Of a DNA stretch of 64,000 nt, positions 33,279-63,679 are shown one piece after another (the first letter of the stretch is position 1; each line of letters opens with the position of its first letter). The translations under genes and the position numbers were made by a program. Under the pieces are notes generated by a model. That model was not told the origin of the DNA. It did not search any database and was given only the letters and a program-made list of their open reading frames with translations. The DNA is from Thermococcus pacificus (GTDB lineage: Archaea; Methanobacteriota_B; Thermococci; Thermococcales; Thermococcaceae): positions 496,001-560,000 of the forward strand of contig NZ_CP015102.1 of the NCBI RefSeq assembly GCF_002214485.1. Direction: 5' to 3'.

Positions 33279-33833
33279 TCATTCCGCCAGCTCGAACCTC
33301 GCCACCGTCTCGTAGATCGGTCCCTTCGGAGTCAGCGTGCTCTTCTTGAGCTCTATCGCGTTGACCTCGAACTCCCCAAATTCCTCGTTGGCAAGGTCTT
33401 TCAGCGCCATCGCCAGCTCAAGCTTATCCTTCACGAACTTGACGCGGCCAATGGTTATGTGGGCAACGAAGTCTTTTTCCTTCTTGAAGCCCAAGCGACG
33501 CATCTCCCTCTCCACATCGGCCGCTATCGCCTTTATGCCCTCGTCGTTCTCTATGCCGGCCCAGATTACCCTCACGTAGTTGGGATTCGGGAAGACGCCG
33601 ATGCCCCTAACTCTAACGCGGTGCTTTTTGTGCTTCTTGGCTATCTCCTCCAGGGACTTCTTGACTTCCTCAGCTGTTGCTTCGTCAATCTCGCCGAGGA
33701 ACTTCAGCGTTACGTGAAAGTTTTCGCGCTCGACGAACTTTATCTTTGCCGCTTTGCTCCCTATCCTCTCCTGGGCCTTCAAGAGATTGTCCCTAACTTC
33801 GTCGCTGACCTCTACCGCTATGAACGCCCTCAT
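33279..33833 (-). CDS. thpR: RNA 2',3'-cyclic phosphodiesterase (2H family, ThpR/LigT)
   Basis: A 184-residue two-histidine phosphoesterase. Both catalytic HxTx motifs are visible: FHVTLKFLG (about 41) and HITIGRVKF (about 127). Members hydrolyse 2',3'-cyclic phosphates on RNA and can ligate tRNA halves in vitro. It is the gene just upstream of cca with 9 bases between, so a small RNA-processing operon is likely. GGTGGTGTT precedes the ATG. Confidence 0.92.
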
Positions 33834-33890
33834 AACACCACCTAGAAAAGTTGGAGAAAGGGGTTAAAGGGGTTTTCGGGGAGTTCCTTA

Positions 33891-34208
33891 TTAGCCTCCT
33901 CTGAAGAACCATTCGACGATGATCACTATTCCCAGCTCGATGATTAGGCCCAAGAGTGCAAAGTACTCTTCTTTGAGTGGAATGAGGAATGCCAAAGCAA
34001 GCCAAAGGAGAGTGAAGGCGCCTATCACTGTTAATTCTGCTGTTGGAATGTTTCTGTCGAGGTAGCTCCCGAGCACTATCATGAATACTAACCCTCCAAT
34101 TTGGATCCACATCCATGGGCGATTTACTTGTCGTGGGAAATCCATGAATGTTAGTGCAAAAAGGAAGAGGAAATAAATGAATGGAAGAACGAAAGTCCAG
34201 CGTCTCAT
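33891..34208 (-). CDS. Small three-helix membrane protein, partner of the secreted protein upstream
   Basis: A 105-residue protein with hydrophobic helices at about 5-22, 34-48 and 57-100 and a short cytoplasmic basic tail. A GAGGTG site precedes the ATG. It begins 11 bases after the stop of the secreted protein gene, so the two form one operon, and both are AT-rich compared with their surroundings. No family recognised. Size, topology and pairing resemble immunity proteins that accompany secreted peptides, but there is no sequence support for that role. Confidence 0.6.
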   Translation of the reverse strand: MRRWTFVLPFIYFLFLFALTFMDFPRQVNRPWMWIQIGGLVFMIVLGSYLDRNIPTAELTVIGAFTLLWLALAFLIPLKEEYFALLGLIIELGIVIIVEWFFRGG

Positions 34209-34219
34209 GGTTTTTCACC

Positions 34220-35104
34220 TCAGGGATTTGATAGGTGGTAGTCATTTTTAAGTGTGTAGCTGGCTATCCTTAGATATTTTAAAACAGGTCCGTATTCATA
34301 CCCCGGAGGTATCCAGCGCCAGTGATATTCCCATTTCCAAGCGAACCATACCCATAAGCAGCCATGCTCATCCAAAAGGTAGTTTCCAAATGTTATCCCT
34401 GCTGCCAGGCCAGTTATGGCTCCAATAACAGCGCCTGGCACGTTGGCGAAGTAAGCACCTATAGCAGCACCTAGTGCAGTTGGTCCAGCGTCTAGGAGAA
34501 ACTTTGATTTCGCCCAGGAGAAGTGTAAGTGCGTGAGCTTATTGCCTTTTATTGAAGCAGTATCCCATGGTTCTATTCCATAGTACTCATAATCTGGATG
34601 CGGGTACCGTATCATGTAGCCTTTGACAAAGTACACTCCGTCCCACCAGTAATGTTGCTGTGTGGTTAAGGTCATAATGTTACTTGACTCCTTGTTAATC
34701 CCTGGCTTTGATATTAACTGCTTTGTTTTCAAGCCTGGATCTATCATGTTTATTGGGGTTCTTATAGAGTATGTGGTCCCGGAAGTATCTTCCATGGTCA
34801 GTATGTATGAATCATTTATCTTGGTGGACGTTAGGTGGACAACGTCAATTATCTCACCTGTAGTTGTGTTTGTGATAATTATTTTTGCTTCTATGCCATT
34901 GGTCCTATAGTCTACTAAAAGGTCTCCAAAAACAAAGGTCTGTCTCGTGGGGGTATCCACCAAGAGTTTAGTTGGGAACTCCTTCATAACCACTGCTTTT
35001 GTGTGGGAATTTTGGGAGGGACTCGGCATCGCTGCTGCGCTTCCCGCTGCCATTCCGATCATCAGCAGTCCCAGCAGGACTGCGAACAAAGGCTTCCACT
35101 TCAA
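34220..35104 (-). CDS. Secreted protein with glycine-zipper hairpin and Trp-rich tail
   Basis: About 294 residues from a TTG start at 35104, chosen because GAGGTGA is correctly spaced (5 bases) and the resulting N-terminus MKWKPLFAVLLGLLMIGMAA is a clean signal peptide; the longer frame from 35146 lacks this. A polar beta-type region (about 30-190) is followed by a small-residue hydrophobic hairpin at about 200-240 (GPTALGAAIGAYFA, NVPGAVIGAITGLAAGI) and an aromatic segment CLWVWFAWKWEYHWRW. The hairpin looks membrane-inserting, like those of pore-forming peptides. No known family. Codon use is AT-rich, suggesting transfer. Confidence 0.55.
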   Translation of the reverse strand: MKWKPLFAVLLGLLMIGMAAGSAAAMPSPSQNSHTKAVVMKEFPTKLLVDTPTRQTFVFGDLLVDYRTNGIEAKIIITNTTTGEIIDVVHLTSTKINDSYILTMEDTSGTTYSIRTPINMIDPGLKTKQLISKPGINKESSNIMTLTTQQHYWWDGVYFVKGYMIRYPHPDYEYYGIEPWDTASIKGNKLTHLHFSWAKSKFLLDAGPTALGAAIGAYFANVPGAVIGAITGLAAGITFGNYLLDEHGCLWVWFAWKWEYHWRWIPPGYEYGPVLKYLRIASYTLKNDYHLSNP

Positions 35105-35152
35105 GGGGTTCACCTCTGCAATGGTTGTGCAATACTGATTATGCAACTTTTC

Positions 35153-35162
35153 CTTATAAGTC
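35153..35162 (-). promoter_or_regulatory. TATA box of the secreted-hairpin operon
   Basis: Minus-strand ACTTATAAGG about 50 bases before the TTG start, preceded by purine-rich GGAAAG as BRE. Confidence 0.5.
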
Positions 35163-35167
35163 TTTCC

Positions 35168-35184
35168 TTTTACTTAAAGTAAAA
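35168..35184. promoter_or_regulatory. Perfect palindrome next to the promoter (candidate operator)
   Basis: TTTTACTTAAAGTAAAA is a perfect 8-bp inverted repeat around a single base. It lies directly upstream of the BRE/TATA element of the secreted-hairpin gene, a location where archaeal activators or repressors bind. No known regulator is matched. Confidence 0.45.
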
Positions 35185-35321
35185 ATTCTTACTTGTTTTT
35201 TTCGAGTATAAATTCGTTTGGAGTTGCGTTTTTCAGTTAGGATGATTCAAAAGAAGGCCGAGTAAAGGAGTTGCATGAAGATGCAAGTGGGTGCAAGTGG
35301 AAGAATCAAAAAGTTAAAACC

Positions 35322-35786
35322 TCACTCCCTCACGACGACCGGGAACTCCTCCCAGGGGAAGACGACCCACTTGTCGGTTCTGAAGACGTAGAAGTCCGGC
35401 ACGACCTTCGTCCAGGGCTTCATGCTGAGGCAGACGACCTTAACCTCGCTCGCTCCAGCTTTTTTAACCTCGTCGATGACGACCTCAAGCGTCTTCCCCG
35501 TGTCGCTGACGTCGTCGACGATTACCACCTTCTTGCCCTTGAACTCGCCGTGGAGGGGTATGGTTATCACGGGCTTCTCCATTCTCTCGTCAATCCCCTT
35601 GTAGAACTTGACATCGATGACCTTGACCTCAACGTCGCCGAGGATGTGGCTGAGCCTCACGGCTGGAATGAGTCCGCCCCTCGCAACTCCGACTATCACA
35701 TCCGGCATGAAATTTTTCCTCAGTTCATCAGCCAATGCAAATATCGCCCTGTCAACCTGCCACCAGGTGAGATAGACCTTGTCCAT
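35322..35786 (-). CDS. Purine phosphoribosyltransferase (xanthine/guanine/hypoxanthine type)
   Basis: A 154-residue type I phosphoribosyltransferase that salvages purine bases using PRPP. The PRPP loop VVIVDDVSDTGKT is at about residues 86-98, and GVARGGLIPAVRLSHILG is the early PPi-binding loop. TDKWVVFPWEEFP near the C-terminus is typical of the XGPRT-like group in Thermococcales. A GGGGTG site precedes the ATG. Precise base preference is not decidable from sequence. Confidence 0.87.
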   Translation of the reverse strand: MDKVYLTWWQVDRAIFALADELRKNFMPDVIVGVARGGLIPAVRLSHILGDVEVKVIDVKFYKGIDERMEKPVITIPLHGEFKGKKVVIVDDVSDTGKTLEVVIDEVKKAGASEVKVVCLSMKPWTKVVPDFYVFRTDKWVVFPWEEFPVVVRE

Positions 35787-58940: not shown

Positions 58941-60470
58941 ATGAGCGAAGCAAGCCAGGCTTTGCAGAATATTGCAAGGGGGACGGGTATTGTCTTTGCT
59001 GGAACTGTTATCTCAATGTTCTTCGGGTTTTTGAGCAGAGGGGTTATAGCGAGGTACTTTTCAACTTCAGAGTATGGAGTGTTTAATCTAGCTCTGACAA
59101 TTTTGAGTATCACCCTCGTACTTGCAACGCTTGGCTTTCCGAACTCTCTCCCTAGGGAAGTCGCCTTCTATAGAGAGAAAGAGCCGTCAAGAGTAAGAGA
59201 TTTAATTTCGACAGCCGTGGTGATTGTTGCTGTAAACAGCTTTGCAATCATGATGTTTCTGATTTTTGGTTCGGGCTTTATAGCTCAGGTGTTTAATGAA
59301 GAGAGACTAGTTTATCCTCTAAAAGTGATGGCTTTTGCCCTGCCGTTTTCTGCTTTAATAGGTGCGATAATTTCAATTTCCCAAGGCTTTGGAAGAGTCA
59401 GAGAAAAGGTATACTTTCAGAATGTGGTTTATCCTGTAATCTGGCTGGTATTTGTCGTCTTACTTGCCCTTCTTAGCCTTCCGTTTGCTTCCTTGTTCTG
59501 GGCATATGTCATCGCCCAGTTCCTGACATTCCTCACATTGATCCTTGAAACCTACAGGATTGGGCTCTTTAGGTTCAGACCTTCTCTCGACGTGGGGCTC
59601 GGGCGGAAGTTAGTTGCATTCTCTTTTCCTCTGATGTTTGTTGGAATACTGAACTTTCTGATGACCTGGACTGACACATTGATGCTTGGTTACTATAAAG
59701 GTTCCGAGGTTGTAGGGTTGTACAACGCAGCAACACCGCTGGCTAGGCTGATTCCGATGTTTTTGAATTCTGCGGCTGTTATTTACTCCCCCATAGTCAC
59801 CTCATGGTATGCTCAGGAGAAAATGGCGGAAATGAAAAGGGTTTACCAAGTGCTCACGAAGTGGATATTTCTGCTGACTCTCCCGCTGTTTGCTCTCATT
59901 TTCCTCTTCCCGGAAGCCACGATATCGTTCCTTTTTGGAGAGAAATACGTATCAGCAGCACTCGCACTTCAGGTTCTCTCCTTGGGTTTTATGTTTCACA
60001 CGTTTCTGGGGCTAAACGGCATGACGCTGATAGTTATCGGTAAGCCGAAGCTCAACATGATCGGGGATACCTTTGCGGTGGTCTCGAACGTTGCTTTAAA
60101 CCTCGCTCTAATTCCCTCATATGGAATGGTTGGTGCTGCCGTTGCCACGACAGTTTCTTATTTTGTCGCCAACGTGTTCAGGTCGTACTGGCTCTATAAA
60201 ATGACGAGGATTCACCCATTTAGCTGGAGCTATGTGAAGCCTCTGGCCATATGGTTTGTTTTACTTGGGATTATTAAGGGGTTAAACCTTAGTGTGCCTG
60301 ACATATGGTACGCCATCCTAGCTCTTCTGGTCTTTATGGGAGTTTATGCTGTTCTTGTCCTTCTCAGCAGGAGCATTGATAAAGAAGATATCGAGCTGTT
60401 GCTGGCCGTTGAAAAGATATTGGGAGTTGATTTTGGAATAATAAAGAGAGTTTTGAAGAGGTTCGTTTAG
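58941..60470 (+). CDS. Polysaccharide/oligosaccharide flippase (MOP superfamily, Wzx-like)
   Basis: A 509-residue protein with about 14 membrane helices. The N-terminal NIARGTGIVFAGTVISMFFGF and RYFSTSEYGVFNLALTI segments and the MTWTDTLMLGYYKGSEVVGLYNAATP motif are typical of RfbX/Wzx flippases, which move lipid-linked glycans across the membrane. Here it likely exports a rhamnose-containing unit. GGTGAG precedes the ATG. Ends with a 4-base convergent overlap with the next gene. Confidence 0.88.
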   Translation: MSEASQALQNIARGTGIVFAGTVISMFFGFLSRGVIARYFSTSEYGVFNLALTILSITLVLATLGFPNSLPREVAFYREKEPSRVRDLISTAVVIVAVNSFAIMMFLIFGSGFIAQVFNEERLVYPLKVMAFALPFSALIGAIISISQGFGRVREKVYFQNVVYPVIWLVFVVLLALLSLPFASLFWAYVIAQFLTFLTLILETYRIGLFRFRPSLDVGLGRKLVAFSFPLMFVGILNFLMTWTDTLMLGYYKGSEVVGLYNAATPLARLIPMFLNSAAVIYSPIVTSWYAQEKMAEMKRVYQVLTKWIFLLTLPLFALIFLFPEATISFLFGEKYVSAALALQVLSLGFMFHTFLGLNGMTLIVIGKPKLNMIGDTFAVVSNVALNLALIPSYGMVGAAVATTVSYFVANVFRSYWLYKMTRIHPFSWSYVKPLAIWFVLLGIIKGLNLSVPDIWYAILALLVFMGVYAVLVLLSRSIDKEDIELLLAVEKILGVDFGIIKRVLKRFV

Positions 60471-61903
60471 ATTTTACCTTTTAATTTCAGGTGTTTAATA
60501 GCTTTTTTAAGTTTTTCATCTTTTTGTTTTATTCTATAATAACTGGGGTCAACGTATTTTGGTTTTCTTTTCACAAATTCTGAATCTTCTTTGAATATTT
60601 CCATTAAAACCCTTCCGTCCATATCGCTTGGAATAGGGAAATTAAATATATGAAGAATCGTGGGAGCTATGTCATAAACTGTTGGGAGATGTCTGAAAGT
60701 AATCTCTGAGTTAATTCCCTCCCCCAAAGCACCAAGTATTCCGTGAATCTCGTGATCCCCTTGGTAAGTTGTCTCTGTTAGTTTCCCGCTGAGATCTCTA
60801 GAAAACTTGATTCCATCCTTGGGCACTATAAATAAATCTGGCAATAACTGAATATGTGGTCCCGTGTATATTTCTTCCTTCAATACTACCTTGGAGATCT
60901 CTGGAAATGACTCAAGTGCTTTCTTTACTTGTTCTTTAAGTGTTTTATCAGTTACATACACCCCCCATGTGGCATGAGATAACATAAATGCTTTCCTCTT
61001 TTGAGGGTCCGTGGCGTAGGACATCTGATTTGTGCCGCGAGTAGCGAGTATTTTTGCAATCTTAGAGGGTATTATTTTTTTGCCAAACCTTACAAAGGAT
61101 GCCTTAGTTTTGTTATATCTCAGAAAGCCTAAACGAGCTAATGCTTCATTCACATAGAAAATCTTGCGCTTGATTTCGAATCCGTGATCACTTACAATAA
61201 ATGTGATATCTGCTATATTCATTGCTTTATCAATGAATTTTTTTATCTTTTTAAATACTCCATATACGAGATGAGTATCTTTGCCCTCCAGTATTTGAGG
61301 AAAAATATGAGAGAACCAATCTGTTTCACTAAAAACTATAAAGTATAGATCCCAGTCCCAATCTTCTAGTAGGTCGTAGTATATGTTAAGCCGGGTAGTC
61401 GTGTACTCTTCTACACGTTTTGCATAACCCGAGGGATTATCAATGTGCTTTTCCCAGGAGTGTGGGGGGTCAATTAGATATTCTTTGTATTTTTCGTTAA
61501 GCCTTTTCGGATAAATCTCCTGATATGGAGCTGCCCAATCTGATACTATCACAGTGTTTTCTTTAAATTTAATACCCTCGAATGGGTATGTCATTGGTAG
61601 ATTAATGAGAACACTTTTTAAACCATGCATGCTGAGTAGCTCTGATATTCTGTAGTATTTAACATCACGAGAAGTTGCGATATTCACTGTGAGCTCTTTA
61701 GGATCAATTCTCTGAAAATCAATGATACCATGTTTTGCGGGGGTTACTCCTGTCAATATAGAGGTCCATGCTGGGGGAGTATATGGGGGAATTGTAGATA
61801 TGAAGTTATGGATGTATTTTGTATTTAGTCCTACTAGGTTTGCAGTATTTATATTCGCACCATCTAGGCCTATTACAACAACCTTGGTTCTGTTCTTTGG
61901 CAT
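60467..61903 (-). CDS. Alkaline-phosphatase-superfamily phosphodiesterase/phosphotransferase
   Basis: A 478-residue cytosolic-looking enzyme. VVVIGLDGANINTANL carries the first metal Asp; TPPAWTSILTGVTPAKHGIIDF has the nucleophile Thr; the second metal site is FIVSDHGFEIKRKIFYVNEAL; GDHEIHGILGALG contains a late His. This is the pattern of type I phosphodiesterase/nucleotide pyrophosphatase enzymes. Within a glycan locus it may hydrolyse or transfer phosphate groups on sugars or lipids. GGAGGTG before the ATG lies in the last codons of the upstream gene. AT-rich. Confidence 0.82.
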   Translation of the reverse strand: MPKNRTKVVVIGLDGANINTANLVGLNTKYIHNFISTIPPYTPPAWTSILTGVTPAKHGIIDFQRIDPKELTVNIATSRDVKYYRISELLSMHGLKSVLINLPMTYPFEGIKFKENTVIVSDWAAPYQEIYPKRLNEKYKEYLIDPPHSWEKHIDNPSGYAKRVEEYTTTRLNIYYDLLEDWDWDLYFIVFSETDWFSHIFPQILEGKDTHLVYGVFKKIKKFIDKAMNIADITFIVSDHGFEIKRKIFYVNEALARLGFLRYNKTKASFVRFGKKIIPSKIAKILATRGTNQMSYATDPQKRKAFMLSHATWGVYVTDKTLKEQVKKALESFPEISKVVLKEEIYTGPHIQLLPDLFIVPKDGIKFSRDLSGKLTETTYQGDHEIHGILGALGEGINSEITFRHLPTVYDIAPTILHIFNFPIPSDMDGRVLMEIFKEDSEFVKRKPKYVDPSYYRIKQKDEKLKKAIKHLKLKGKI

Positions 61904-63679
61904 TTACACACCTCCGAGGAATATTTTCATCCCAGGAGCAACATATACTTTTTGAAAATAATTATCTGCTTGAAGCCGCATATAGTCTATCTCATTAAAC
62001 TTGTGCAGTTTTTTGACTTCGGGGATTTTTAAATAAAACGTCTCTTCAAACCGGGTCAATATAAGATATGTGGTTTGAAGAGACGTTTTACTATTGTAAT
62101 TGAAATGATCAGGATAGAGTCGTGGTAGTTTATTGTAACATATATGGGTTGCTCGGTACTGTCCATATATAAAACTAAAAAACCTGTAAGGTATATACAT
62201 TCTACTGGAGATTGGATAACAAGCCCCACGCTGTACAAGCCATGCAGAACCACTTATTTCGCTATATGTAACTTGAGGATTATACCGTGTGATCTGGGCG
62301 GGGGTGACCCCAAATGTTTTGACGCTAACAACAGTCCCGAATACGATTAAGATAGTAATGCTTAGTATTACTATTTTTGTGATCTTTTTATGCATGATTT
62401 TGTTACTACCCATTAAGATGCCTAATAGCATGAATGTGAATAAACTTGGATACTTCAAAAACCTGTAATATTTTATTACGATATCAACCCAAATAGAGAC
62501 TATTGCTAAAATCACGAAAATAATGATCTGCGTGCTTGATATTATGATTATAGAGAATAATCTCGTGTCATTGAATAAGAACTCGTCTTTGTACTTCCAT
62601 ACGATGAATAGAACGAGCCCTGTGGTTCCTAAAAAGACTATGTATGCCACATTTGGTATTAATGCATTTTTTAGTATCTCAATTAATGGTATCTGTCTGT
62701 TTGTGACAAATTGCCCATAGTATTCAGCAGGGCTTTTATTGGTGATTCCTGAGATTACATAATAAATTCTATTGGCATATTTCATACCTCTAGTTGAATT
62801 CAAGACATAGAACACATTAAATAATACTATGAATACTGTGAGAGTACCAATGTGTGAGAGTACCAAATTTGACTTGTCTTCTTTATTGTTGGAATACAAA
62901 TATTTAGTGACAATTATTGAAATGACAAGCGTTGTTGCAAATAATACAAACTCAAAATGTGCAAATGGTAACAACAAATAAAATGGGATCACTAAATACT
63001 TTATGGCTCTCATACTCCAATTTTTTATTATAAATAAATACACCAAAATGGGGGGAATGACTAAAAACAAATTCGAAGATGGCCTAAACAAGATAATTGG
63101 TTCTGTCAATAAGGGTATTGTGAATAAAATTATGGGAAATAAAATTTGATGGGTTTTAAGATTAGGGTGTAGTCCTTTTAAGATCATTATTGCAAAGACT
63201 ATGAATGTTCCAAAATACATCACAATTACTTCTCTACTGGCTGTGAATATGCTATCTATTCCCTGAATTTTTAAGAGCATTGCTGTATAGATATGAAGTA
63301 TTGGATATATGTTATATTGTTCATATACCCGTGAAGTAATGAGAATATCTCTTACAAGCCCCGCATGAGTCATAGAATCGTGTCGCCCAAAAAAAGCATA
63401 ACCTTTTAATTCGGGCAATAATATTAGTGTTATTGTTACTACCGTTAGGAGCAACATTACTAAAATCTTGTTAACACCTTTTTGATAGTATATATTTACT
63501 ACTCCAGTAATATATAAAATAATTACAATATATAACACTCTCGATATTCCATTGTATATAGATATTTCATACCCACTTGCAGGTTGTATTTTTGTCATTG
63601 TGTATAAGTATACACTAAGTGTGAATACAAATATTATGCCATCTATAAAATTCAACACTTTATGCATATTTTTTGTCAT
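61904..63679 (-). CDS. Large multi-pass membrane protein (possible glycan polymerase or GT-C glycosyltransferase)
   Basis: About 591 residues with 12 or more predicted helices and a C-terminal extracellular region of about 120 residues (SAWLVQRGACYPISSRMYIPYRF, split by charge). A large early loop contains FFGRHDSMTHAGLVRD, with acidic and His residues between helices reminiscent of GT-C enzymes or O-antigen polymerases; no definitive motif is seen. ATG 63679 follows GGGGGGAT. Very AT-rich, the lowest GC in the window. It overlaps the preceding glycosyltransferase gene by 20 bases. Confidence 0.7.
   Translation of the reverse strand: MTKNMHKVLNFIDGIIFVFTLSVYLYTMTKIQPASGYEISIYNGISRVLYIVIILYITGVVNIYYQKGVNKILVMLLLTVVTITLILLPELKGYAFFGRHDSMTHAGLVRDILITSRVYEQYNIYPILHIYTAMLLKIQGIDSIFTASREVIVMYFGTFIVFAIMILKGLHPNLKTHQILFPIILFTIPLLTEPIILFRPSSNLFLVIPPILVYLFIIKNWSMRAIKYLVIPFYLLLPFAHFEFVLFATTLVISIIVTKYLYSNNKEDKSNLVLSHIGTLTVFIVLFNVFYVLNSTRGMKYANRIYYVISGITNKSPAEYYGQFVTNRQIPLIEILKNALIPNVAYIVFLGTTGLVLFIVWKYKDEFLFNDTRLFSIIIISSTQIIIFVILAIVSIWVDIVIKYYRFLKYPSLFTFMLLGILMGSNKIMHKKITKIVILSITILIVFGTVVSVKTFGVTPAQITRYNPQVTYSEISGSAWLVQRGACYPISSRMYIPYRFFSFIYGQYRATHICYNKLPRLYPDHFNYNSKTSLQTTYLILTRFEETFYLKIPEVKKLHKFNEIDYMRLQADNYFQKVYVAPGMKIFLGGV

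Follow-up and report, generated by a model that had tools for sequence, protein, structure and literature searches.

What is encoded by the two adjacent genes of low GC content that separate a purine phosphoribosyltransferase-like gene (PRTase) from thpR in Thermococcus pacificus? The window analyzed here is a stretch of 64,000 nucleotides (contig NZ_CP015102.1, positions 496,001 to 560,000), and the genes in question specify a predicted secreted protein of 294 amino acids (aa), termed the payload, and a 105-aa membrane protein, termed the partner. The original prediction, which took them for a candidate archaeocin/immunity pair, described a two-gene operon with an 11-base spacing and a GC content below that of its neighbors. 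Both open reading frames are present 11 bp apart, with the correction that they lie on the minus strand; the segment has a GC of 0.44-0.47 against about 0.55 in its surroundings, and the entire PRTase-thpR filler is 44% GC. The pair is more than a chance arrangement of reading frames because other species have conserved versions of both proteins, with a ratio of nonsynonymous to synonymous divergence (dN/dS) of 0.13-0.18. Comparison with 93 other Thermococcales genomes (94 in all) suggests, with a probability that we put at about 0.74, that the genes encode a Sec-secreted polymorphic effector and a membrane immunity protein.

A first line of evidence is one-sided retention. The mature payload occurs in 10 of the 94 genomes, leaving aside hits of the VARTIG type (considered below), while a close relative of the partner occurs in about 18. 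Such a patchy distribution led us to reject a housekeeping role, and the genes are neither universal nor strangers to one another elsewhere. Both are intact in G000, G025, G028, G034, G039 and G049. The payload is broken and the partner frame open in G004 (whose partner has an altered C-terminus), G088, G054 (which has two partners) and G072. The partner is found without a payload, which was replaced, deleted or has decayed, in G003 (whose partner differs in its first nine residues), G047, G057, G051 and G068; the last 15 payload codons (93% identical) survive directly upstream of the partner in G057, as does a decayed payload remnant in G068. Decayed or fused copies also exist in G009, G010 and G045. 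An intact payload is always accompanied by the partner (none without one was found among the 94 genomes), whereas the partner also occurs by itself, and this distribution follows a toxin/immunity pattern. Two other payload families behave comparably: the 53-aa partner of a family whose payload ends in IWHN has extra or solitary copies at the same place in G059, G002 and G039, and in a third family (locus L051) the payload is internally deleted while the partner remains open.

A second line of evidence is a leader common to unrelated payloads. The payload matched 46 of 61 congeneric genomes, along much of its length in eight of them, and about 140 further matches covered almost nothing beyond the first 45 residues. 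The leader, 25 residues long, is present in 56 of the 94 genomes, across all six genera, and the mature parts behind it form 16 BLAST groups, some of them fragments, corresponding to about a dozen unrelated payload families. Genes with unrelated mature parts (26.6% identity, the chance level) share 75.5% identity in their leader DNA, and codons for the same residue agree in 59% of cases, where codon usage would predict 34%. Measured against its homologues, the window shows a lower synonymous divergence in the leader (0.47-0.54) than in the payload (0.73-0.95) or thpR (1.0-1.5). Similarity between leader genes stops just past the signal peptide; upstream, a conserved block reaches about 180 bp and includes GGAAAANTTATAAGG, which resembles a B recognition element (BRE) and TATA box, and the palindrome TTGCAT-N4-ATGCAA. 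Many leader genes, of unrelated payload families and at several sites, have the palindrome at about -172 to -182; counting both strands, 750 kb of loci gave 32 hits in total, and the window copy is the only one in its genome. An extended form, TTGCAT-N4-ATGCAAC(TC)NTTTAC, was also seen at a near-fixed distance 5' of leader genes.

The leader and promoter occur at the PRTase-thpR site, which is an exchange site, and at other sites. Both flanking genes were read in 45 genomes: the stretch between them is an empty 39-40 bp in 10 and 9 bp in an eleventh, and the other 34 hold 0.25-6.6 kb of varying genes. Among the fillers are window-type cassettes, an IWHN-ending payload with a two-helix partner of 53-57 aa, a hairpin payload of 225 aa whose partner has nine helices, a payload of 227 aa with four membrane genes behind it, and leaderless genes, one of which encodes about 990 aa. 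Mapped onto a tree built from the flanking genes, the occupant has changed 30 times or more, with window-type cassettes on several separate branches. Transfer, which the original prediction had read from base composition, is shown directly, since the inserts of G025 and G004 are 99.7% identical between flanks that are only 87.8% (PRTase) and 86.2% (thpR) identical. In G028 and G026 the flanks are 94% and 92% identical and the promoter-leader is similar, with unrelated payloads. G047 matches the window in its leader and carries an unrelated effector, with an immunity gene 89% identical to that of the window; this gene is the last before thpR, behind the different payload and that payload's own membrane genes. 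A transposon was considered and set aside: the inserts keep the same ~39 bp on the thpR side, and we noticed no recombinase gene among the cassette genes; terminal repeats were not searched for. Read from their sequences, related species look like carriers of other weapon/antidote pairs, a leftover antidote or nothing in the same chromosomal slot.

Additional recurrent sites of leader cassettes were observed beside leuS (L065, L071, L075, L076, L082, L085 and L094) and beside kbl (L157, L163 and L167). Others stand next to what we take to be an aIF2-gamma-like GTPase gene and elsewhere; the names leuS, kbl and GTPase are our assignments by sequence recognition.

Membrane genes accompany leader genes well beyond this one site. 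Directly downstream (within -20 to 70 bp) of 34 of 55 leader genes, those of at least 120 aa, lies a same-strand membrane gene; for other genes the proportion is 78 of 684 (Fisher p 8e-17). These figures come from a home-made gene caller and a hydropathy rule that give approximate gene starts and helix numbers. The adjacent membrane gene would be the one that confers immunity. A single payload family of about 349-401 aa, which may be a different class and not an effector, accounts for many of the leader genes that have no adjacent partner. Its members (L065:4367-5413, L082:4219-5274, L095:4979-6028 and others) often have a tail resembling FEVEVNP or reading FTVEMYPW.

Several observations weigh against an effector/immunity function. 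No tested payload matches a known toxin domain, and the AlphaFold model of the mature payload has a predicted local distance difference test (pLDDT) score of 37 and was not used for a fold search. Broken payloads in draft or metagenome-assembled genomes could be sequencing errors (G072 is a single contig, the others are drafts), and the payload gene, being larger, is a bigger target for random breakage. The dN/dS of orphan copies may mostly reflect divergence that preceded orphaning. Finally, the window-type immunity gene ends a recurring array behind a different payload in G047, G009, G010 and probably G051, so that either these copies are orphans or partners are not strictly specific.

The same observations bear on the alternatives. 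In a non-lethal system of self/non-self recognition or adhesion, the payloads would be exchanged secreted surface tags and the membrane proteins their receptors or anchors. A variable secreted protein with a membrane partner and patchy exchange between species would fit, as would a hairpin held in common with VARTIG, whose authors leave a recognition or adhesion option open (PMC8416519). A receptor or anchor should not outlast a broken or deleted ligand, yet this is seen in nine genomes, and no common anchor domain was found; we regard such a role as unlikely. Viral pressure could also diversify the surface, either by varying a receptor or by superinfection exclusion to which the membrane gene contributes, and both the fast turnover at fixed sites and the small membrane proteins kept alone would be in keeping with this. 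It is a decidedly improbable account, since neither PADLOC or PHROGs models nor phage and plasmid records (searched with the payload) gave a match, and the shared promoter-leader is more in keeping with a secreted payload than with an exclusion protein. That the membrane protein helps export, fold or process a secreted protein, the pair having an ordinary envelope or nutrient role, is suggested by the operon arrangement and by the small membrane gene that most payload families have of their own, yet it is the least credible option and very improbable, as a dedicated helper would be useless without the client that these genes outlive, the shared leader points to the general Sec route and not to individual helpers, and payloads are absent from most genomes.

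We therefore return to the effector/immunity interpretation, in which the pair would be one allele of a polymorphic cassette. The first gene would yield a Sec-exported protein whose shared leader is removed, probably by cleavage after AAA. The mature payload would combine a beta-rich N-terminal domain with a C-terminal killing module, built of a glycine-zipper helical hairpin and then a Trp-rich segment, and the hairpin would insert into and damage the membrane of closely related competitors. The four-helix protein would stay in the membrane of the producer and block the hairpin of its own payload. The leader with its ~180 bp of upstream regulatory DNA on one side and the thpR side on the other would offer shared homology for cassette swaps between species, presumably by homologous recombination; as effectors are displaced, older immunity genes would persist beside thpR. 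For the hairpin as the killing part the odds appear even, because several payload families have no glycine zipper; that all payloads carry one was considered and rejected, only some families doing so. Whether the wider picture holds is a similarly balanced call: an arsenal across Thermococcales genera in which many unrelated membrane-active effectors, each with a private immunity gene, would use one promoter-leader as their universal handle for secretion and recombination. They would be under joint control through TTGCAT-N4-ATGCAA and share killing modules with VARTIG, and the signal peptide and its control region would be the only constant part of the system.

The architecture of the payload agrees in large part with what had been anticipated. 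From the N-terminus it comprises MKWKPLFAVLLGLLMIGMAAGSAAA, about 125 residues with weakly predicted beta strands, a HYWWDGVYFVKGYMIRYPHPDYEYYG block, the glycine-zipper hairpin and a Trp-rich tail. The small-residue hydrophobic hairpin, originally placed at about residues 200-240, spans about G210-E249 in the numbering of the homologue alignment, and the Trp-rich character is borne out by two stretches, HYWWDG (154-159) and CLWVWFAWKWEYHWRW (252-267), that are largely invariant in six homologues. Translation most likely starts at TTG 35104, just 3' of a conserved Shine-Dalgarno-like GAGGTGAACC, and the length of 294 aa is counted from there; alternative starts lie further upstream (GTG 35113 and TTG 35146), and relatives have ATG, GTG or TTG at the codon that corresponds to TTG 35104. 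The partner does have 105 residues, with four predicted helices (4-21, 30-50, 56-75 and 80-103) and not the three first described. In hidden Markov model and structure searches, neither protein matched a known family above the cut-off in Pfam or NCBIfam or had a relative in the PHROGs or PADLOC models; PDB sequence, plasmid and phage searches, made with the payload only, found no relative, and the AlphaFold model of the partner had no significant PDB match. Pfam Gly-zipper matches to the payload fall below the cut-off, as do weak matches to TraT and glycine-zipper lipoproteins, which mainly reflect the hairpin and were discarded. Distant relatives of the partner (31-36%) were observed as a single payload-less gene at a conserved place 5' of a conserved 166-aa protein (G001:C1:544797, G035:C30:177166, G024:C1:672923, G059:C1:860922 and G002:C1:783346), which may represent an ancient immunity gene that has become fixed in the lineage.

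The hairpin also links the payload to VARTIG. The payload profile aligns over residues 185-249 with the C-terminus of a 1067-aa protein of G030 (hhalign E 6e-7, against a best E of 0.02 in 100 shuffles of that tail), and the alignment includes an SI-x-GNK stretch ahead of the hairpin. The 1067-aa protein heads a locus in which smaller standalone proteins alternate with membrane genes, and one protein of the locus carries the VARTIG C-terminal motif (PMC8416519). Domain sharing with VARTIG cargo was found for one domain, the hairpin. Homology was not found between the window partner and either the VARTIG membrane gene or the neighboring 152-aa membrane gene of G047. VARTIG-like loci in which the large protein or standalone proteins have glycine-zipper hairpin ends followed by a 4-5-helix membrane gene were observed at L090 (G030:C5:150000-160000) and L183 (G071:C3:4000-18000); in the latter the hairpin has been split off its carrier and the partner membrane gene is open.

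Features of the locus, in coordinates of the window
Feature	Position	Strand	Basis or remark
thpR (RNA 2',3'-cyclic phosphodiesterase)	33279..33833	-	Right border of the exchange site
Segment of ~39 bp	33834..33873	-	Entire PRTase-thpR gap at empty sites; retained next to thpR where the site is filled
Predicted immunity protein, 105 aa, four predicted transmembrane helices	33891..34208	-	Kept where payload is broken or absent; AlphaFold pLDDT 71, predicted template modeling score (pTM) 0.54
Payload (predicted secreted effector)	34220..35104	-	Open reading frame calls; full-length homologues 73-78% identical in G025, G028, G034, G039, G049
Trp-rich segment CLWVWFAWKWEYHWRW	34300..34360 (approximate bounds)	-	W254, W256, W259, W265, W267 invariant in six homologues
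Glycine-zipper hydrophobic hairpin GPTALGAAIGAYFANVPGAVIGAITGLAAGITFGNYLLDE	34360..34486 (approximate bounds)	-	Homologue alignment; hhalign match to VARTIG C-terminus
Shared leader (signal peptide MKWKPLFAVLLGLLMIGMAAGSAAA)	35030..35104	-	Conserved ahead of unrelated mature parts
Promoter-like block GGAAAGACTTATAAGGAAAAGTTG (BRE/TATA-like)	35146..35170	-	Conserved 5' of leader genes
CTTCTTTTG element	35248..35257	-	About -150 from start codon
Palindromic element TTGCAT-N4-ATGCAAC then TCCTTTAC	35262..35286	-	-182 from start codon
Purine phosphoribosyltransferase-like gene (PRTase)	35322..35786	-	Left border of the exchange site

Apart from this locus, GC falls to 31-46% at 59400-63600 of the window, suggesting an integrated element or foreign segment at its end.

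The cassettes are compact two-gene candidates that come with natural controls in orphan-immunity strains and empty-site relatives, and Thermococcales have genetic systems, so that antagonism between hyperthermophile species and the function of VARTIG would become directly testable. To our knowledge, no antagonistic Thermococcales toxin has so far been shown experimentally, and the VARTIG proposal was the only one found in the literature on such toxins. Archaeocins, including halocins and sulfolobicins, are secreted archaeal proteins that act against relatives and come with self-immunity. The window pair differs in having a separate four-helix immunity gene, and its activity against relatives is a prediction. 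The distribution of the genes supports the effector/immunity half of the original label; Pfam and NCBIfam reported no archaeocin family for the pair, halocin sequences themselves not having been compared, and "archaeocin" is here a functional label only and not family membership.

VARTIG (Makarova et al. 2021, PMC8416519) has several features in common with the cassettes: it is likewise restricted to Thermococcales and hypervariable, places a secreted protein first and small membrane proteins after it, and has recombining C-termini, one of whose domains is homologous to the window hairpin. The leader proteins themselves nevertheless fail the VARTIG definition. None of the 55 has the motif D[ND]NxxxG[GD] at its C-terminus, and the window operon has a different leader and no large arCOG07710 Ig-domain protein, its 294-aa payload matching no Ig-type family. 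Leader cassettes are also small, sit at housekeeping-gene sites and exchange the whole mature part, not only a C-terminal domain.

Two bacterial systems offer the remaining parallels. In Vibrio cholerae type VI secretion system (T6SS) arrays, new effector/immunity modules displace the old effector by homologous recombination and the old immunity gene is kept downstream (PMC5361080), much as partner genes outlast displaced payloads in Thermococcales; the cassettes here are archaeal, with export by signal peptide and not by a T6SS, and their toxicity is a prediction. Compared with bacterial polymorphic toxin systems (Zhang et al. 2012, PMC3482391), the leader cassettes are archaeal, their constant part is the promoter and signal peptide only, and they have no dedicated delivery or trafficking domain. 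Their payloads matched no known toxin domain above the cut-off, and in the window payload the glycine-zipper hairpin is the only feature of that sort. They share with those systems a constant N-terminal region joined to diverse effector parts, a predicted immunity gene for a membrane protein immediately downstream, and the retention of that gene as an orphan.
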